Shown here: piece by piece, positions 4,441 to 16,998 of the stretch
How positions within the stretch are numbered: the stretch's first letter is position 1
How the letters are laid out: each line of letters opens with the position of its first letter
DNA from: Lachnospiraceae bacterium
GTDB taxonomy: Bacteria > Bacillota_A > Clostridia > Lachnospirales > Lachnospiraceae
Direction of reading: 5' to 3'
NCBI GenBank assembly: GCA_017613595.1
Contig: JAGADM010000145.1
Coordinates: 1 to 17,151 of the forward strand
Length of the DNA: 17,151 nt
Program-made: the position numbers and the translations under genes
Notes under the pieces: generated by a model
What the model was told of the DNA's origin: nothing
The model's input: only the letters and a program-made list of their open reading frames with translations
Databases searched by the model: none

Positions 4441-6738
4441 CTATTGCATCCACCACAGCTTGTCCGCGATGGTCTTGTAGTAGTTGTTATTTAAAATCGC
4501 ACGCGAGATGTTGAATTTGTTCTTAACGATCGTCTTATAGGAATCGAGGTACATCTTCTTGTATCCGTCGTCCCATGTGTCGGCGCCGAGCAGCCACTCC
4601 GCCGCGCCGGTGTTCGCGTTGTAGCGCACGTAATCGGTGATAAAGCTGTAATCCTTGAACTGCACGAGACCGAGTGAATCGGAGAAGATATCGGTACCCA
4701 TGTACAGTCTCGAATCGTACTCGATACCCATCAGGTTCAGAACGGTAGGCAGAATATCAAGGCTGCATGCCGCCTTTGAAATCGTCTGCGGGCGGATATT
4801 CGGATTCCAGATGATCAGATGCTCCTTATACCGCTCAAAGGTCGGATCGATCTTATGTCCCGCGAGCTCATTACGCGATGCTTCGGGAAGTCCGTACGGA
4901 TAATGGTCGCCGGACATGACGATCAGCGTATTGTCAAGGACGCCGGCTTCGTCCAGTTTGGTGATCAGGTAATTGACCGCGTTCTCCAGCTCGATATTGC
5001 AGGCGAGATAGCATTTGGCCTGTTCGCTGTAAGGAAGATCCTTGACCTCGTTGCGGTGCTTGCGGCCCATCGCGTTGTCGCCCCACTCATATACCATATG
5101 ACCGCTCATGGTCATGAAGTACACGTGGAAATGCTCTTCGTTGATAAACATCGGAATCGCCTGCTCCATCATCTCGAGGTCGGATTCCGGGAACTGTTCG
5201 GTAATGTTCAGACCGCGGCCGCGGGCGATAAATTCATAGCCCATGTTGGGGTGGGATTTGTCGCGGTCATAATAGGTCGCGGAATGGTTGTGGAACGCGT
5301 AGGTCGTGTAGCCCATCGCGTTATAAATGTGCCCAAGGCAGCAAGCCATCACATTCCTCGAAGAACGGCTGAAGCTGCTCGACTGCTGGATATCCGGAAG
5401 CAGACCCGTGCACACCGTGTACTCGCCGTCACTCGTACTCGTGATCCAGTAAGGCGTATAGAAATTGTCAAAGTAGAAACCGCTGTGAACCATGCGGTAA
5501 AGCGTCGGCGTCGTATCCTCGCGGATTGCCAGCGGATGGAACGTTTCGCAGGTCATAACGATGAGGTTATACCCTTCGAACATTCCGGTATATTCGTTCT
5601 TGTTGGTCGGCGTTACATTGGCCAGATACTCGTTGATAGTCTTGATCGCGCTGCTCGAGGACGTCGAAGCCATGTAGCTGAAATCGAGGTCAAGCACGTG
5701 AGGCGAACGGTCAACCGGCGTCGGTGTAGGCGTCGGCGTCGCACCCGGGTCACGGTTTGGCTCGGGCGTCGGTTCCTCGGTCGGAGCCAGAGTCGGCGTC
5801 GCAATCGGCGGAATCACGATCGTAACGGCGTCGGTATCGACATCACCCACCGCCTTTTCATCGTACGTGATCTTACGGCATACATCCTGGATCAGACCGA
5901 CCATGATGCCGTTCTGACGGACACACCGGTCGGGCTGCCAATCTTTATAAAAGGAACTGAACCGGCCGTTCAGACGGGCTCCCTTGCTGTCGATCATGGA
6001 AAATACGATACCCGCGCACAGTGCTCCCATGCCTACGGCACGAAGCATAAACCGGCCGGGAAGTCTCTTGTGACGGTAGCCCTTCCGCCGAAGGACCGCA
6101 TACGCGATAAGCGGAATAAGAAGCAGCAGAACAAGCGGCATTCTGGACCACAGCGCGCTTAAGCCCGCCTTCCAGAATTCCTTCGCGTCACCCGCGTTAC
6201 CCATTACGGAAAAGGTGAGATAGTTATTAAAAATCTGGTGATAAGTAGCCTGCACGGTGAACCAGACGGTGATTGCTCCGAGCATGGACCAGCTTACAAT
6301 CTTAGCCGCGAAATCCTTAAGGAATCCGGCCGCAGCCGCATACAGAAAACCGATCGCAGCCGCAAAGAAAAGAATATAGAAAACAGAACTGTCATGTATT
6401 CCCTTATTCAGATAGATATGGAACATCACCTCGTCCCATACAAGAACTGCCGAAGGAAAGAACAGCTGCAGAAGAACCGACCGGAAAGAGATCTTCTCCT
6501 TTTTCGCAACCGGCGGTGCGTCCGGAAGATCATCAATCGACTCTTTCAGAACATCCGGAAGCGAGCTCTCGTCAAAAAGGACCGTCTTAAGGTCAATATC
6601 ACCGTCAAAGGAGTCTTCGCACGAAACCTTCTCCGACATATCATCGACGGCATCCAACTCCGGGAACGCATTGAAGATTACGATCTCGTCGTCGAGGATT
6701 TCCTCCAGTTCTCTGTTGTCCCTGTTGTTATCCGACAT
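4441..6738 (-). CDS. LtaS/sulfatase-fold membrane phosphoglycerol transferase
   Basis: A 765-residue membrane enzyme of the lipoteichoic-acid synthase family (alkaline-phosphatase/sulfatase fold), which moves glycerol phosphate from phosphatidylglycerol to a cell-surface acceptor outside the membrane. Layout: an acidic cytoplasmic tail (1-75); five hydrophobic segments (about 86-110, 118-140, 147-166, 199-216 and 230-249); a Pro/Thr-rich linker with PT repeats (311-345); and the catalytic domain (about 388-700). Family motifs are present: LIVMTCETFHP with metal ligand E398, a WITSTSDGEY segment carrying the nucleophile region (T433-T435), MTMSGHMVYEW, and MSGDHYPYG with D611/H612. It is longer than typical LtaS (about 640) because of the tail and linker. 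The ATG at 6738 has AGAGG ahead of it. A single-gene unit. The exact polymer made (LTA or other phosphoglycerol decoration) is not settled. Confidence 0.85.
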   Translation of the reverse strand: MSDNNRDNRELEEILDDEIVIFNAFPELDAVDDMSEKVSCEDSFDGDIDLKTVLFDESSLPDVLKESIDDLPDAPPVAKKEKISFRSVLLQLFFPSAVLVWDEVMFHIYLNKGIHDSSVFYILFFAAAIGFLYAAAAGFLKDFAAKIVSWSMLGAITVWFTVQATYHQIFNNYLTFSVMGNAGDAKEFWKAGLSALWSRMPLVLLLLIPLIAYAVLRRKGYRHKRLPGRFMLRAVGMGALCAGIVFSMIDSKGARLNGRFSSFYKDWQPDRCVRQNGIMVGLIQDVCRKITYDEKAVGDVDTDAVTIVIPPIATPTLAPTEEPTPEPNRDPGATPTPTPTPVDRSPHVLDLDFSYMASTSSSSAIKTINEYLANVTPTNKNEYTGMFEGYNLIVMTCETFHPLAIREDTTPTLYRMVHSGFYFDNFYTPYWITSTSDGEYTVCTGLLPDIQQSSSFSRSSRNVMACCLGHIYNAMGYTTYAFHNHSATYYDRDKSHPNMGYEFIARGRGLNITEQFPESDLEMMEQAIPMFINEEHFHVYFMTMSGHMVYEWGDNAMGRKHRNEVKDLPYSEQAKCYLACNIELENAVNYLITKLDEAGVLDNTLIVMSGDHYPYGLPEASRNELAGHKIDPTFERYKEHLIIWNPNIRPQTISKAACSLDILPTVLNLMGIEYDSRLYMGTDIFSDSLGLVQFKDYSFITDYVRYNANTGAAEWLLGADTWDDGYKKMYLDSYKTIVKNKFNISRAILNNNYYKTIADKLWWMQ

Positions 6739-9937: not shown

Positions 9938-11119
9938 CTACTTGTTCGCAGCAGCATCCTCTTCCTCATGCGGAATCCCGAGTTTCTCAAACAGCTGCTT
10001 CTGCTTGCGGTGTTCCTTATAATTTGCGACAACACCGGCCGAATTCTTGTCGCGCTTAAGGCCCTTTCTGATATATCGGCATATCTGATAGATCCAGGCA
10101 AACGGACGGAGGATCTTGTGCTTTTGGGCGGCAGGCCAGTGAGACAGACCTCTCTGCTGAAGCTTCCTGATTGTGATGCCTTCATTTAATATGGACGTAG
10201 TCAGGTTATCCTTCCGCACACGGCTCTGGCCGAAGTTCCCGGCTTCACAGATCAGATCAAACAACTGCTTGCACACCTTCTCATCAGCATCCGCGCACCA
10301 TGAATGTGTCGGCGCTCCAAGAAACAACTCGCCCATTCTTGTCACAGCTTTTGCGAGTGTCTCCACTCCGGTTGAGGCCGCAATCGGCTGCAGCCGCTGC
10401 TGCCAGAACTCATCTGTCACAACCGCGTTCACATACATAAGCCAGTCGATAATCTGTCGGAATCCGAGACCGGAATATAAATGCGATGAAATATGATGCA
10501 GAAAGACGAGCCCGTTCACTTCGTCCGGAAAAGAATAAAACCGGTATGAGCCGAAACTTTCAATCCGCTTTTCTACCGTGGTAGAATCATTAATTATTCT
10601 ATCGAGCAGCAATTCTTCCTGGTTTCTCTGATGAGAAAAATACCGGTGCATTTCAAGTTCCAGTTTCCCTTTGCGGAATTCGAGATGACGTTCCATCCGG
10701 TCTTCTTCTTTATATCCAAGTCCCTGCAGAACCGCTCTGGCCTTCTCGAAAGTTTCCTCTGTTCTCGGGAATACCATAAAATCGATATCTCCCATCCTGC
10801 GAAGGCCCGGTTCCGGATAATACATGGCAGCAGAAGCACCTTTGAGAACAGCTGCCGTACAGCCTGCCTGAGAGAGTTCGTCCATAATCTTATTCTGTTC
10901 ACTCATATAAGCGGAGAAAGAAGTCATCTGATGCGCCAGAGCCTGCTCCACCTCTTCCTGAACACCGGGCTCGGCTTCATACTTTGAAATCGCATCTGCC
11001 GCCAGTGCGAGAATCATATGCCCATTCAATTGCCGGATAGTTTCTTTCGTAACCTTACCGGCAGCCGGCGGCCGATGATACAATGCAGTTTTTAAAATGT
11101 CTATTGCTAATTGATCCAT
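9938..11119 (-). CDS. Nucleotidyltransferase-fold family protein (PF14907-like)
   Basis: A 393-residue protein resembling the uncharacterised nucleotidyltransferase family PF14907, often found in polysaccharide gene clusters. The core is recognisable: VLKGASAAMYYP (91-102) carries the KG motif, and LRRMGDIDFMV (106-116) holds the D111-x-D113 metal pair of the polymerase-beta nucleotidyltransferase fold. LELEMHRYF (153-161) supplies a third acidic strand. The C-terminal half is helical and ends in a very charged tail. The donor nucleotide and the target are unknown for this family. The ATG at 11119 has AAGGAT ahead of it. It is transcribed divergently from the HTH-UDP-glucose-dehydrogenase operon, with the two promoters back to back, so joint control is plausible. 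Confidence 0.78.
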   Translation of the reverse strand: MDQLAIDILKTALYHRPPAAGKVTKETIRQLNGHMILALAADAISKYEAEPGVQEEVEQALAHQMTSFSAYMSEQNKIMDELSQAGCTAAVLKGASAAMYYPEPGLRRMGDIDFMVFPRTEETFEKARAVLQGLGYKEEDRMERHLEFRKGKLELEMHRYFSHQRNQEELLLDRIINDSTTVEKRIESFGSYRFYSFPDEVNGLVFLHHISSHLYSGLGFRQIIDWLMYVNAVVTDEFWQQRLQPIAASTGVETLAKAVTRMGELFLGAPTHSWCADADEKVCKQLFDLICEAGNFGQSRVRKDNLTTSILNEGITIRKLQQRGLSHWPAAQKHKILRPFAWIYQICRYIRKGLKRDKNSAGVVANYKEHRKQKQLFEKLGIPHEEEDAAANK

Positions 11120-11218: not shown

Positions 11219-11240
11219 TCGTTTTTTCATAGATTAACAG

Positions 11241-11269
11241 TTGCCATTTCTGTCAATATTTGTTATCAT
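11241..11269 (+). promoter_or_regulatory. Main promoter (P1) of the UDP-glucose dehydrogenase operon
   Basis: TTGCCA (11241-11246), 17-base spacer, TATCAT (11264-11269). The expected start is near 11276, giving a leader of about 67 bases that contains the palindrome at 11305-11321. If a protein binds there it would act as a downstream roadblock for P1. Confidence 0.65.
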
Positions 11270-11303
11270 ATGCTTGTGTGTATTATCGAGGTAGACGAAT
11301 CTT

Positions 11304-11331
11304 TTGTCACTTAAAGTGACATTCATATAAT
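11304..11331 (+). promoter_or_regulatory. Possible second promoter (P2) overlapping the palindrome
   Basis: TTGTCA (11304-11309), 16-base spacer, perfect TATAAT (11326-11331). The match is strong, but the -10 touches the ribosome site GGAGG (11333-11337), so a transcript from here would be almost leaderless. The palindrome covers its -35. Confidence 0.35.
11305..11321. promoter_or_regulatory. Perfect palindrome, candidate operator for the HTH-fused enzyme
   Basis: TGTCACTTAAAGTGACA: two perfect 8-base half-sites around a central A. It lies 21 bases before the GTG of a gene whose product starts with an XRE helix-turn-helix, the class that usually binds such dyads, often in front of its own gene. 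It overlaps the -35 and spacer of P2. As RNA it could form only a short tight hairpin with no T run, so a DNA site is more likely than a terminator. Confidence 0.6.
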
Positions 11332-11342
11332 CGGAGGTTCTT

Positions 11343-12851
11343 GTGAAAAAACTATCCCTTCCGCTTCTTTCCGAAACGGTTATCTCCCGAAGAAAAACAC
11401 TGAAGATTACGCAGGCGCAGCTGGCACAGATGACCGGCATCCACAGAGGCCTTCTTTCCAAACTTGAATCGAAGAATTTTACACCGTCCATCGAGCAGCT
11501 GCAGGCACTTGGAGAAGCCCTTCAGTTTGAACCGACCGACATGTTTGTAAATCCCGAAACCGCTTCCGTGAACGAGTCTTCCCTTCCGTCCATGCGGATT
11601 GCTGTCGCGGGTACAGGTTATGTAGGTCTGTCACTCGCCGTACTGCTTGCTCAGCACAATCAGGTTACCGCAGTTGACATCATTCCGGAAAAGGTGGACA
11701 TGCTGAATCAGTTCCGCTCCCCCATTCAGGATGAGTATATTGAAAAGTATCTCACGGAAGCCGCCCGAGGTGAGCGCGAGCTTTCCCTCACAGCGACGCT
11801 TGACGGCGAGTCCGCATATTCCGCTGCCGATTTCATTATCGTCGCGGCACCGACCAACTATGACCCCAAGCAGAATTTCTTCGATTGTTCCGCGGTCGAA
11901 GGCGTATTAACACTCATAAAGAAAGCAACAGCAAGCAGGAAGGATAAGCCTTCCATTATTATCAAATCCACTGTCCCTGTCGGTTTCACTGCCCATATCC
12001 GCGAGAAACTCGGCATGGATAATATTCTGTTCAGCCCTGAATTCCTGCGGGAGTCCAAAGCCTTGTACGACAATCTCTATCCGAGCCGGATTATCGTCGG
12101 ATGTGACGCGCAGACCGAGAAGGCAGCGCACACATTTGCCTCCCTCCTGCAGCAGGGAGCCCTCAAGGAGGATATCGAAACGCTCTTCATGGGCTATACC
12201 GAAGCAGAGGCTACCAAGCTCTTCGTCAACACTTATCTCGCGCTTCGTGTCAGCTACTTTAATGAGCTCGACACCTATGCCGAAGTAAAAGGACTTCAGA
12301 CTGCGCCGATCATTAAGGGTGTGTGCCTTGATCCGCGTGTCGGCGACTACTACAACAACCCTTCGTTCGGTTACGGCGGATACTGCCTCCCGAAGGATAC
12401 GAAGCAGCTTCTCGCGAATTATCAGGATGTGCCGGAGAATCTGATCCAGGCCATCGTGGAAAGTAACCGCACAAGAAAGGATTTCATTGCAGACCGTGTA
12501 CTGGAAATCGCAGGCACTTACGGGAACAGTGAGTCCTATTCGGCCGCGAAGGAGCATCGCCAGAAAGAGATCGTTGTCGGCGTATACCGGCTTACCATGA
12601 AGTCCAATTCGGACAACTTCCGCCAATCTTCCATTCAGGGAGTCATGAAGCGGATTAAGGCCAAAGGTGCCTCAGTTGTCATTTACGAACCCACGCTTGA
12701 AAACGGTTCTACCTTCTTCGGAAGTCTTGTCGTAAACGATCTGAAGAAGTTTAAAAAGATGTGCGGATGCATTATCGCGAACCGTTATGACGCGGTTCTA
12801 GATGATGTTAAGGAAAAGGTGTACACAAGAGATCTGTTCCGAAGAGATTAA
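11343..12851 (+). CDS. ugd: XRE-type HTH domain fused to UDP-glucose 6-dehydrogenase
   Basis: A 502-residue fusion. Residues about 10-70 form a complete XRE/Cro-type helix-turn-helix ([20 protein letters not shown], then [16 protein letters not shown]). After a short linker, residue 84 onward is a full HasB-type UDP-glucose 6-dehydrogenase, which oxidises UDP-glucose to UDP-glucuronate with two NAD+. The Rossmann motif GTGYVG (90-95) and the NAD-binding D112 in VTAVDI are intact. So are [15 protein letters not shown]292 and N296 in ATKLFVNTY, and catalytic C348 with D352 in [12 protein letters not shown]. An extra stretch (about 388-409) is absent from the paralogue. The GTG start has GGAGG 5 bases ahead. 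No ribosome site precedes the internal ATG (11592), so the fusion is translated whole. It likely binds DNA and controls its own operon (inference). Confidence 0.93.
12351..12403 (+). repeat. 53-base exact repeat, copy 1 (copy 2 at 13670-13722)
   Basis: The 53 bases coding for [18 protein letters not shown] are identical in both dehydrogenase genes, silent positions included. Other equally conserved protein blocks of the two genes differ at many silent positions. Confidence 0.85.
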
Positions 12852-12895: not shown

Positions 12896-14119
12896 ATGAA
12901 GATTACAGTTGCTGGAGTCGGATATGTGGGTCTCTCACTCGCAGTCCTTCTCGCCCAGAAACACGAAGTAACGGCAATCACCACAACGGAGAAGAAAGCC
13001 GAAAAGCTGAACAAGTTCCTGAGCCCCATCCAGGACGATGAGATTGAGCGTTTCTTCAAAGAAGCACGCGAAGGCAAGAGAACCCTTAACCTTCATACGA
13101 CGACCGATAAGGCAGCCGCTTATGGCAGCGCGGATCTCGTAATCATTGCCACTCCGACCAACTACGATGACGAGCATCACTTCTTCGACACAAGCGCCGT
13201 TGAAGATGCCATTGAGTGGACGATGAAGGTTAACCCCAACGTTATGATGGTAATCAAATCCACCATTCCGGTCGGATATACCGAAAGCGTTCGTGCGAAA
13301 TACGGTATCCGTAATATCATCTTCAGTCCGGAGTTCCTTCGCGAATCCAAAGCTTTGTACGATAATCTTCATCCGAGCCGCATCGTTGTCGGATGTGATG
13401 ACGATCAGAAGGATGTTGCACAGCAGTTCGCCGATCTTCTCTTAGAGGGGGCCCGTACCGAGGAACAGAGAGCCGGTCAGGCTCCTCAGAACATTCCGGT
13501 TCTTCTTGCACACCTTACTGAGGCAGAGGCAATCAAACTGTTCGCCAACACCTATCTTGCCGTACGTGTCAGCTACTTCAACGAGCTCGATACTTACGCA
13601 CAGATCAAAGGTCTCGACACACAGATGATCATCGACGGCGTCTGCATGGATCCGAGAATCGGCGGACATTACAACAACCCTTCGTTCGGTTACGGCGGAT
13701 ACTGCCTCCCGAAGGATACGAAACAGCTTCTTGCCAACTATCAGGGTGTTCCGCAGACCATGATCAAGGCCGTTGTGGAATCCAACATTGTGCGTAAGAC
13801 CTTCATTGCAGATCAGATTCTTTCTAAGAATCCCGACACCGTCGGTGTATACCGCCTTACCATGAAGAGCAACAGCGACAACTTCCGCGCATCCGCTATT
13901 CAGGACATTATGAAGCAGATCAAAGCCAAGAATGTTCCGATCATCATTTATGAGCCCACTCTCGAGGACGGCAGTGAGTTCTTCGGATGCAAAGTTGTGA
14001 ACGACCTCGCAAAATTCAAAGGCGAAAGCGATGTCATTCTTGCCAATCGTTTTGATCAGGATATTTTGGGAGATGTTGAAGAAAAGGTTTACACAAGAGA
14101 CCTGTTCAGAAGAGATTAA
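12896..14119 (+). CDS. ugd: UDP-glucose 6-dehydrogenase, HasB type, without HTH; unusual cofactor site
   Basis: A 407-residue dehydrogenase of the standard length of Streptococcus HasB, closely related to the preceding fused copy and ending in the same YTRDLFRRD. The Rossmann GVGYVG (7-12) is intact, as are the active-site residues K214 and N218 in AIKLFANTY, catalytic C270 and D274 in [12 protein letters not shown]. The segment that normally reads VxIVDI reads VTAITT here, so the acidic residue that binds the NAD ribose (D29 in HasB) is T29. This may shift it toward NADP+ or weaken cofactor binding. A GGAAAGGG lies about 9 bases before the ATG. It is 44 bases downstream of the fused copy and clearly in the same operon. 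Confidence 0.95.
13670..13722 (+). repeat. 53-base exact repeat, copy 2 (copy 1 at 12351-12403)
   Basis: Second copy of the identical block spanning the catalytic cysteine motif. See copy 1. Confidence 0.85.
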
Positions 14120-14154: not shown

Positions 14155-15258
14155 ATGAGCAAAGTCCATGTTGATCTCAACAATAAGACAATCCTTGTGA
14201 CCGGTTCTCCCGGTTTTATCGGTGCGAACCTTGTCATTCGTTTGCTGAAAGAAATGACGGGCGGAACAATCATCAGTTTCGACAATATGAACGATTACTA
14301 CGATCCGGCTTTGAAAGAGTACCGGCTTGGATTGATTGAGGAAGCGGCCGGGAAATCCCCCGTGAAACATGTCTTTGTCCGCGGCTCGATTGCGGATAAG
14401 GAACTGGTCGACAGGACATTTGCCGAATATCGTCCTTCCATTGTCGTAAACCTCGCCGCGCAGGCAGGAGTACGGTACAGCATCGATCATCCGGACGTTT
14501 ACATTGCAAGCAATCTGATTGGCTTCTACAACATTCTGGAAGCCTGCAGAAATTCTTATTCGTTAAGTACCGACGATGGATACAGCGGCGTTGAACATCT
14601 CGTGTACGCGAGTTCCAGCAGCGTATACGGCGGCAACAAGAAAGTTCCTTTCAGTACGGACGACAAAGTGGACAACCCGGTCAGTCTTTATGCCGCTACC
14701 AAGAAAAGCAATGAGCTTCTCGCACATGCCTACAGCAAGCTATATAACATTCCTTCAACAGGTCTTCGGTTCTTCACCGTTTACGGACCTGCCGGACGGC
14801 CGGATATGTTCTATTATTCCGCGACACAGAAACTGGTCGCAGGCGGAACAATCAAGATTTTCAATTACGGAAACTGCAAACGTGACTTCACATACGTTGA
14901 TGATATTGTGGAAGGCGTATTCCGTGTTATGCAGGGTGCTCCTGAGAAGAAGGACGGCGAAGACGGACTTCCGCTTCCGCCCTACGCCGTATACAATATC
15001 GGCGGCGGGCAGCCGGAAAATCTGCTCGATTACATCTCCACCTTGCAGGAGGAACTGGTTCGCGCAGGTGTCCTTCCCGCAGACTATGATTTTGAAGCGC
15101 ATCGCGAACTCGTCGGCATGCAGCCCGGCGATGTTCCGGTAACATTTGCGGACTCCGAGGCGCTCGAAAAGGATTACGGTTTCACGCCTCGTATAGGCAT
15201 TCGGGCGGGATTACGTTCCTTCGCGGAATGGTATTACAGTTACTATAAAAATTCATGA
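14155..15258 (+). CDS. UDP-glucuronate 4-epimerase (NAD-dependent epimerase/dehydratase)
   Basis: A 367-residue extended short-chain dehydrogenase most like UDP-glucuronate 4-epimerases (CapI/LspL type), which make UDP-galacturonate for capsule or exopolysaccharide. Visible: the NAD-binding motif GSPGFIG (17-23); SFDNMNDYYDPALKEYR (41-57); the NLAAQAGVRYSIDHP block (99-113) typical of this subfamily; the catalytic serine region YASSSSVYG (151-159); and YxxxK at Y179/K183. GNCKRDFTYVDDI (239-251) binds the nucleotide sugar. It is about 30 residues longer than usual through small insertions (about 135-147 and 260-275). AGGAGG lies ahead of the ATG. Last gene of the operon, it would use the product of the two dehydrogenases, which supports the assignment. 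Confidence 0.92.
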   Translation: MSKVHVDLNNKTILVTGSPGFIGANLVIRLLKEMTGGTIISFDNMNDYYDPALKEYRLGLIEEAAGKSPVKHVFVRGSIADKELVDRTFAEYRPSIVVNLAAQAGVRYSIDHPDVYIASNLIGFYNILEACRNSYSLSTDDGYSGVEHLVYASSSSVYGGNKKVPFSTDDKVDNPVSLYAATKKSNELLAHAYSKLYNIPSTGLRFFTVYGPAGRPDMFYYSATQKLVAGGTIKIFNYGNCKRDFTYVDDIVEGVFRVMQGAPEKKDGEDGLPLPPYAVYNIGGGQPENLLDYISTLQEELVRAGVLPADYDFEAHRELVGMQPGDVPVTFADSEALEKDYGFTPRIGIRAGLRSFAEWYYSYYKNS

Positions 15259-15396: not shown

Positions 15397-16998
15397 TCAC
15401 GTGCGGACTGCCCTTTTAATCCAGGCTAATGCTTTCTTACACAGTCCGCTTCTGTGCCATATAAGCCACCATAAAGCCACAGACAAAGCAGAACAGATTC
15501 CAAGTCTTCCTACCAGACATAGAACTCCGATTGCCCTGCTTTTCTCTGCCAAATGCATTGGCAGCAGGATATCACACGAAAGCCAACTCACTCCGGACGT
15601 TATCAGCATAGTAACCGTATAGGCGAGATGATCCGTCCAATATTCTCTAAGCTTCCCATTCTGAAAGTAATGATGGAACAAGACTCTCGGACACAGAAAG
15701 CAGTTCGTAACGAAGACCGATATTACTGTAGCGAGCACAATTCCCAGTACCCCCAGCACTTTGCAAAGTACAATATTCATCACGGTATTGGCAACGGCCT
15801 CTCCAATCATAATGTACCGGCATTCATACCACAGCCCCGCTCCTTCATGGTAAACCCAACGGATATCTCCGGACTTGAGCACATAAAAGTATACGCAGAA
15901 AGCGATTACGACAGGCATCCCGAACAACATGCCCTTCCCCAGCCACACTTGAATAAACGGCTGATAAAGACATAACAGACATACCGTGCCCCATCCTGCA
16001 ACAGCCATATAGATAAAGTCGAAGAGTCTCATATCTTCATAGTTCTTCGCCTTGCTTTCCGACGCGATGCTGTTGCCCACGCTCGACATCATGGAATTCA
16101 GAGCTATCGTACTTACCGAAATCACAGCCGCCATGATATGGTAGTATATACTGTATACTCCCGTAATCGTTAATCCGACAAAAGCCGAAATACAAAGCGT
16201 ATCAATGCTGTTTCGGGACACTCCGGTTACCTTTCCGATGATCAGTCCGGACACTTTCTTGGTAAGATCTTTCTTTTGATCCCCGTCAATTTCCCCTCTG
16301 CATCTCAGTTCGGGGTAACGTCTTCTTATCACATGCGCAGTGACAAGATTGCGCACGATTGTCAGTACGGGAATCGAAAGCAGATAGAAATAGAAATTCC
16401 AGCTGACGAGTAACAGGAGAAGTTTTACCAGACACTGAGGGACGCTGAACCACAGATTTATCTTACTTAAGACATCTCTTCGCTGATAAGCCAGCGGAAT
16501 CGAAGTCATATAACCGAAGAGCAGATAGCTGATTACCGCATCGCTTAAAAAGATCAGGTAGCACAGGTATAAATTGAGACCGCCGGGAAGTGTCTGCTCC
16601 TTAACGAAGAACCGAAGAAACGGCATAAGGATCGATCCCACAACTAAGATTGCCGTTCCGATCAATGCGTACATTTTTCTGTAATAAGCAAGGTAACGGC
16701 ATACCAAGTCCGTATCATTGTCCGCAACCGGCTTATACATACTGTACACAACAGCAGTCCCGAAGCCGAGTTCCATAAGAGACAAGACACTAAGAATAGA
16801 TGTAAAAAGACTGCTCAGTCCAAGGTAATCGGCTCCGAAACGATAGATAATGATTGTTCTGAGAACAAACGGCAGCAACTGAGAAACGGTAACCTGCAGC
16901 AGCCCATAGAACATGTTCCGCTTGGTATTCACAATCCGTCCTGTTTTCCCGGTATTCTTCTCCATACTCCTGCCATTCATCCGCTCACAACACTTCAT
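15397..16998 (-). CDS. Wzx-like polysaccharide flippase (MOP superfamily)
   Basis: A 533-residue membrane protein of the oligosaccharide/polysaccharide flippase type, with about twelve to fourteen hydrophobic segments and no soluble domain. It would move lipid-linked sugar repeat units across the cytoplasmic membrane. The opening, NTKRNMFYGLLQ, then FVLRTIIIYRFGADYLGLSSLFTSIL split by short loops, and LMELGFGTAVVYSMYKP are characteristic of Firmicute flippases in exopolysaccharide clusters. Start choice is uncertain: ATG 16998 follows the upstream stop by 21 bases without a clear ribosome site, and ATG 16980 or 16965 are alternatives, the last with AGGAG placed too close. It is in the same direction as the partial gene at the edge, so probably one operon. 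It converges on the UDP-sugar operon. Confidence 0.85.
   Translation of the reverse strand: MKCCERMNGRSMEKNTGKTGRIVNTKRNMFYGLLQVTVSQLLPFVLRTIIIYRFGADYLGLSSLFTSILSVLSLMELGFGTAVVYSMYKPVADNDTDLVCRYLAYYRKMYALIGTAILVVGSILMPFLRFFVKEQTLPGGLNLYLCYLIFLSDAVISYLLFGYMTSIPLAYQRRDVLSKINLWFSVPQCLVKLLLLLVSWNFYFYLLSIPVLTIVRNLVTAHVIRRRYPELRCRGEIDGDQKKDLTKKVSGLIIGKVTGVSRNSIDTLCISAFVGLTITGVYSIYYHIMAAVISVSTIALNSMMSSVGNSIASESKAKNYEDMRLFDFIYMAVAGWGTVCLLCLYQPFIQVWLGKGMLFGMPVVIAFCVYFYVLKSGDIRWVYHEGAGLWYECRYIMIGEAVANTVMNIVLCKVLGVLGIVLATVISVFVTNCFLCPRVLFHHYFQNGKLREYWTDHLAYTVTMLITSGVSWLSCDILLPMHLAEKSRAIGVLCLVGRLGICSALSVALWWLIWHRSGLCKKALAWIKRAVRT

Follow-up and report, generated by a model that had tools for sequence, protein, structure and literature searches.

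Can a nucleotide-sugar dehydrogenase that carries its own DNA-binding domain also set the transcription of the operon that encodes it? The question is raised by a gene in the 17,151-nucleotide stretch of Lachnospiraceae DNA analyzed here (the window), in which a helix-turn-helix (HTH) domain and a predicted UDP-glucose 6-dehydrogenase (UGDH) share one reading frame. The gene and its parts are the following.

11333–11337, plus strand: Shine-Dalgarno-like GGAGG, 5 bases before the GTG start, read directly from the sequence
11343–12851, plus strand: predicted HTH–UDP-glucose 6-dehydrogenase fusion gene, 502 amino acids, GTG start (open reading frame, translation, Pfam, NCBIfam, 80 homologous genome loci)
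11388–11537, plus strand: XRE/Cro-C1 HTH, residues 16–65 (Pfam HTH_3, E 7e-9; P22 C2 match; purifying selection)
11550–11591, plus strand: variable linker, residues 70–83 (pN/pS 0.75; model pLDDT below 50 at residues 73–79)
11592–12848, plus strand: complete predicted UDP-glucose 6-dehydrogenase domain, residues 84–502 (Pfam, NCBIfam, PDB relatives, invariant active-site residues)

Architecture and spread of the fusion

The HTH_3 profile matches the fusion protein above its Pfam cut-off (36 bits versus 23), and three Pfam dehydrogenase domains follow in order, all above cut-off (UDPG_MGDP_dh_N at residues 84–261, the central domain at 287–376, and the C-terminal domain at 413–489; PF03721, PF00984, and PF03720). 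Among PDB sequences, residues 7–67 align with the P22 C2 repressor and residues 83–502 with solved UGDH chains, best with 3phl and 3pid and then with 1dli. These matches bear out the initial annotation, which had read the gene as an XRE-type HTH fused in frame to a complete dehydrogenase. In NCBIfam, the UDP-glucose 6-dehydrogenase equivalog PRK15057 spans residues 84–502 (E 4e-157). Because its score of 523 bits misses the curated cut-off of 757, whereas the score for the nucleotide sugar dehydrogenase subfamily NDP-sugDHase passes (295.5 versus 189.8), the enzyme part is filed as a nucleotide sugar dehydrogenase, with UGDH as its most likely predicted identity.

Residues K292, N296, C348, and D352, which we take to be UGDH active-site residues, are invariant in 81 of 81 aligned fusion-family proteins. 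D112, which had been counted with them as catalytic, does not belong in that list: it is conserved in 77 of the 81 proteins and, going by UGDH structure, is presumably the NAD-binding aspartate. The HasB/Ugd enzymes (Klebsiella 3phl and 3plr; Streptococcus 1dlj; Campylobacter Cj1441 7kws) can be aligned with residues 83/84–502 along their whole length and share these active-site residues. Unlike in those enzymes, an HTH part is present, and no dehydrogenase among the 33 matched PDB sequences covers it. The fusion itself is not rare.

Nothing resembling a Shine-Dalgarno sequence precedes the in-frame ATG at 11592 (Met84), in agreement with the earlier remark that no internal ribosome site would allow the enzyme alone to be made; the dehydrogenase is for this reason presumably produced only in fused form. 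Over 694 pairs, pN/pS was 0.35 for the HTH, 0.75 for the linker, and 0.15 for the enzyme (rough values, with synonymous sites saturated), and R17, R35, E42, P48, and Q52 of the HTH are invariant in a 43-sequence alignment. These ratios indicate that the HTH is kept by purifying selection and the linker much less so. A sequencing or assembly artifact, which had been named as a possible refutation, is very unlikely because relatives at 80–97% identity share the identical architecture and because the HTH is under purifying selection; the fusion is genuine. The AlphaFold model of the whole protein is of modest confidence (pLDDT 74.3, pTM 0.51), and a Foldseek search with it gave nothing but sugar-nucleotide dehydrogenases among the 50 matches listed, which is uninformative on how the HTH is arranged.

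In a search of predicted proteins, the 7994 candidates with the most shared words were scored, all significantly, and the best 120 were listed, one being the window's own protein. The other 119, the closest relatives among those listed, all have the HTH family together with the dehydrogenase families (80–100% identity, 98–100% coverage). A genome scan yielded 591 confirmed matches, of which the best 80 were taken as loci; most come from MAGs of Lachnospiraceae, Oscillospiraceae, and other Clostridia, and individual MAGs bear other labels (L011, L061, and L079 among them). Some match occurs in 261 of 397 genomes of one family; among the matches listed there, at least 36 are fused (the match begins in the first 10 residues) and many others are HTH-less (it begins near residue 80). 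Since the fused architecture recurs across the protein, genome-scan, and 397-genome listings, these comparisons indicate that the HTH–dehydrogenase fusion is an established family, common in Clostridia, and no accident.

A tree of the enzyme part with 143 rows (109 fused, 34 not) needs five changes of the fused or bare label, of which starred branches force only one; repeated gain or loss of the HTH among dehydrogenases is suggested by this topology. Short, duplicate, or interrupted loci (L070, L081–L084, L090, L093, L102, and L110) were dropped from the tree and from the held-out set described below. No description of an HTH-fused UDP-glucose dehydrogenase was found in the open PMC literature, a library without preprints and most subscription journals.

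Two further genes follow the fusion.

12896–14119, plus strand: second UDP-glucose 6-dehydrogenase, without HTH, after a 44-bp gap, probably in the same operon (Pfam, NCBIfam)
14155–15258, plus strand: NAD-dependent epimerase/dehydratase family protein, after a 35-bp gap (Pfam)

The second dehydrogenase likewise stays under the PRK15057 cut-off (529 bits versus 757). Its sequence has diverged strongly (end branch 0.74, best identity 68%), which sets it apart from the other HTH-less homologs in the tree, and its substrate could differ. In the PDB, the epimerase-family protein is closest to 5u4q, a structure deposited as a dTDP-glucose dehydratase, followed by 6zl6 and MoeE5, which we take to be UDP-glucuronate epimerases; the protein is probably a UDP-glucuronate epimerase, its exact activity being predicted from such relatives. 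Of 81 loci, 41 have an epimerase-family cluster, 17 a GHMP/galactokinase-like kinase, and 16 a sugar nucleotidyltransferase; in about 10, a second dehydrogenase lies downstream of the fusion. These counts, taken from an automatic ORF table, are lower bounds because the fusion ORF was left unpicked in 5 of the 81 loci and some picked ORFs look antisense. The neighbor set would fit a pathway that both builds UDP-uronates de novo and salvages them. Elsewhere in the window, the minus strand encodes a sulfatase/lipoteichoic-acid-synthase-like protein with a TPTPTPTP stretch ahead of its catalytic domain (4441–6738) and a large protein with no Pfam family and a weak, below-cut-off O-unit flippase-like match (15397–16998), likely a polysaccharide flippase.

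A candidate operator upstream of fused genes

Three features of the region before the fusion gene are relevant to its control.

11241–11269, plus strand: likely promoter, TTGCCA and TATCAT separated by 17 bp, the –10 preceded by TG (consensus match only)
11304–11331, plus strand: second promoter-like match, TTGTCA-16-TATAAT, 11 of 12, overlapping the candidate operator (consensus scan)
11305–11321, no strand assigned: candidate operator TGTCACTTaAAGTGACA, a perfect 17-bp palindrome with 8-bp arms around one base

The candidate operator is the sole match to its sequence in the window within three mismatches, where 0.05 are expected, and it falls inside 11220–11342, the region earlier proposed for footprinting. 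It sits between a promoter-like site and the fusion start codon: the match at 11241–11269 ends 35 bp before it, a layout shared with many two-site relatives. The stronger-looking TTGTCA-16-TATAAT was rejected as the operon promoter and is probably not used as such, because its predicted +1 falls beyond the Shine-Dalgarno sequence. No second operator site above the threshold was found by a motif scan of the window. The fusion gene shares a 223-bp intergenic region with a divergent gene (9938–11119, minus strand) for an uncharacterized nucleotidyltransferase domain, NTP_transf_5, which might be co-regulated from the same candidate operator.

Same-frame palindromes occur in the upstream regions of many other fused loci. 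The motif was defined as TG[TA][TC][GA][CT]T-NNN-mirror, with at least 13 of 14 positions matching and at least 5 of 7 symmetric. Of 79 testable fused genes (L068 and L070 were excluded, their upstream sequence being too short), 58 have it within the 300 bp upstream. The same holds for 2 of the 535 other genes in these loci, and dinucleotide-shuffled upstream sequences give an average of 0.45 of 79 and at most 2; the remaining 831 kb of the fused loci contain 13 matches. The count of 58 of 79 is optimistic because the motif was defined after the first 80 loci had been seen. Held-out loci, fetched after the definition, give a fairer figure: the motif precedes 18 of the 29 fused genes there and none of the 32 genes for HTH-less UGDH (Fisher, 2.6e-8), although part of the held-out set is closely related to loci of the first set, as L095 is to L077. 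The 32 HTH-less genes, at 69–77% identity, are examples of the many Lachnospiraceae homologs that, unlike the fusion, are HTH-less; L142 (72 bases upstream) and the window's second dehydrogenase were not included. Of the 108 non-redundant fused loci that could be tested, 76 have a motif site and 32 have none at the motif threshold. The threshold misses some sites, since near-motif palindromes occur in loci without a match, as upstream of the L024 gene.

At least two sites occur in 40 of the 76 loci that have one. Most proximal sites start 21–50 bases before the start codon, most distal ones 150–200; the distal second site of many relatives lies about 110–165 bp further upstream, and the recurring spacings are 33 (five times) and about 127–152. 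Where the outermost sites are 90–170 bp apart (33 loci), the best sigma-70-like match between them averages a score of 9.3, compared with 8.2 after shuffling, and exceeds the locus's own shuffled mean in 29; its –10 ends 25–37 bp before the proximal site in 21 of the 33. A site overlaps a promoter-like match in only 12 of 58 loci. Three operator-like sites each are found in L011, L016, L047, L049, and L077, with the two distal ones constantly 33 bp, or about three helical turns, apart; this constant spacing suggests cooperative binding at the distal sites of these loci.

Pattern scans covered 27 distinct genomes, 12 with TGTYRYTNNNARYRACA and 18 with a wider pattern. TGTYRYTNNNARYRACA was matched in 7 of its 12 genomes. 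All of its matches lie at the fusion gene in G001, G003, and G009, as do two of five in G004; G002, G007, and G008 have zero matches there, and G007 has 8 overall compared with 3 for the reversed pattern. With the wider pattern, every match is at the fusion gene in G009 and G409, while G408, G410, and G411 combine perfect TGTTGCT palindromes at the fusion gene with one or two imperfect matches elsewhere. Most other genomes contain further matches to it among those listed, up to 15 in G415 versus 7 for the reversed control. The scans give no support for a large regulon, though a small one may exist: in 4 of the 27 genomes (G001, G003, G009, and G409) every exact pattern match is at the fusion gene, although most others hold more. 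A role as a local regulator is suggested, perhaps with some additional targets.

Recognition helix and half-site

If the fused HTH reads the palindrome, its DNA-contacting residues might be expected to vary with the half-site. The relevant segment is given below, followed by the residue pairs at positions 34 and 36, which vary with the half-site.

11442–11468, plus strand: recognition helix, residues 34–42, HRGLLSKLE (81-protein alignment, half-site table), presumed from likeness to Cro/C1 proteins
N34 S36: half-site TGTTGCT, 38 loci
N34 A36: half-site TGTTATT, 11 loci
N34 G36: half-site TGTCGTT, 8 loci
H34 G36: half-site TGTCA[CT]T, 6 loci, the window included
N34 T36: half-site mixed, 7 loci
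Other pairs at 34 and 36: 6 loci

With kinship ignored, Fisher tests associate S36 with G5 (9e-9), G36 with C4 (3e-7), and H34 with A5 (0.003). With kinship allowed for, three independent pairs on supported branches bear on G36 and C4, on average 2.2 changing the same way and 0.0 the opposite way; the corresponding values are 1.6 and 0.0 of three pairs for S36 and G5 and, more weakly, 1.6 and 0.5 of three pairs for H34 and A5. Significance is lost under this treatment because the 3 to 5 independent pairs per test are too few. For some half-site bases, correlations that are equally strong or stronger are found with several columns of the enzyme and with HTH columns beyond the recognition helix (for example, 50). 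The covariation of residues 34 and 36 with the half-site is thus supporting, not decisive, evidence that the fused HTH would read its operator. The table also predicts which residue swaps should alter specificity.

Fusions with a MIGR recognition helix, in place of LLSR or alike, have no canonical site in L075, L078, L092, L094, L096, L100, L104, and L106; other MIGR-type fusions (L073, L089, and L146) do have one. Some MIGR-type fusions may use a different operator.

Models of regulation

In the reading that we prefer and regard as probable on this comparative evidence, the fusion is a dimeric trigger enzyme that binds the 17-bp palindrome and represses its own UDP-uronate operon. The fusion probably controls that operon, given the matching palindrome before its gene here and in many relatives. 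The initial annotation had proposed a trigger enzyme setting the operon's transcription, and this is supported in part, the comparative support for it being strong: the operator-like palindrome, its enrichment in the family, and its absence upstream of the HTH-less homologs speak for it. The protein would make UDP-glucuronate, its predicted activity, and its dimer, which we assume for this type of UGDH, would contact the palindrome through two Cro/C1-type HTH domains. Once bound, it would repress the operon of dehydrogenase, second dehydrogenase, and epimerase, with the candidate operator just downstream of the operon promoter as the repression site. Repression rather than activation is inferred from the proximal site, which falls downstream of the point where transcription is predicted to begin. 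In loci that have a distal site as well, it may help repression, with looping between the two sites.

DNA binding would finally be coupled to ligand. Occupancy by the product, UDP-glucuronate, with NADH is put forward tentatively as the co-repressor, whereas release of DNA by the substrate-bound enzyme seems rather doubtful. Less likely than not is a general picture in which a widespread trigger-enzyme family of Clostridia would read the UDP-glucose/UDP-glucuronate pool directly, at the first committed step toward uronates, and loop DNA between promoter-flanking operators, with helix and operator coevolving and the HTH module gained or lost among close dehydrogenase relatives.

Known systems offer partial parallels. 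NadR carries an N-terminal XRE-type HTH. Together with PutA and BirA, also of Escherichia coli, it is described as a trigger enzyme with DNA-binding function in PMC8249747, where PutA is said to bind only the putA–putP spacer, that is, its own operon region. Like these three proteins, the fusion by its sequence combines a metabolic enzyme and a predicted DNA-binding domain (PMC8249747); unlike them, it is a nucleotide-sugar dehydrogenase of another pathway, and its sites often flank a promoter-like match. It is by predicted architecture only that the fusion can be placed among the trigger enzymes, and for control of expression the support is comparative. With P22 C2, a Cro/C1-type repressor, it shares an HTH sequence match and a palindromic site of 17 bp. 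Such repressors have their own C-terminal domain; in the fusion, by contrast, the C-terminal part is an enzyme.

The alternative closest to the preferred model is that model minus its ligand step: the HTH would steady the enzyme level by negative feedback, and the dehydrogenase domain would sense no metabolite. The linker, which is short, variable, and probably flexible, could uncouple the two domains in this way. We nevertheless consider this sub-case unlikely, since a DNA-binding domain joined to an enzyme whose active site is invariant (81 of 81) is the layout of ligand-coupled trigger enzymes (PMC8249747).

That the fusion activates the operon instead of repressing it is improbable. Distal sites upstream of the predicted promoters, as seen in many loci at mostly about 150–200 bases before the start codon, would suit an activator, but the site found most often, like the window's single site, falls after the predicted start of transcription (the promoters being consensus matches only).

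Likewise improbable is a separate XRE regulator, encoded elsewhere in the genome, that owns the palindrome while the fused HTH is vestigial or otherwise used. Such an owner would be compatible with the abundance of XRE regulators, whose binding sites are palindromes of this kind, with the presence of sequences like the palindrome elsewhere in most of the genomes scanned, and with the 32 of 108 testable fused loci in which no motif reaches the threshold. It would leave unexplained why none of the 32 HTH-less homologs has the motif, why the half-site tends to shift with the fused protein's own recognition helix, and why the HTH, with its five invariant residues, is under purifying selection.

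A reading of the palindromes as leader RNA hairpins that control mRNA stability or translation, rather than as protein-binding DNA sites, would fit the position of most proximal copies within the predicted leader but was rejected as having next to no likelihood, because 107 of the 144 arm mismatches over 123 sites are non-pairing and 37 are G-T (the motif definition allows both), because uneven sites often pair two valid half-sites, for instance TGACGCT and TGTTGCT, so that a DNA half-site is kept while an RNA stem is broken, and because the distal copies precede the predicted promoter.

In the sources, the fusion is named merely nucleotide sugar dehydrogenase or UDPglucose 6-dehydrogenase; the present finding suggests a regulatory role for it. 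UDP-glucuronate supplies bacterial capsules, exopolysaccharides, and wall polymers. If the repressing trigger-enzyme model is true, an enzyme that produces UDP-glucuronate and sets the transcription of its own operon would be a simple, built-in controller of that supply.
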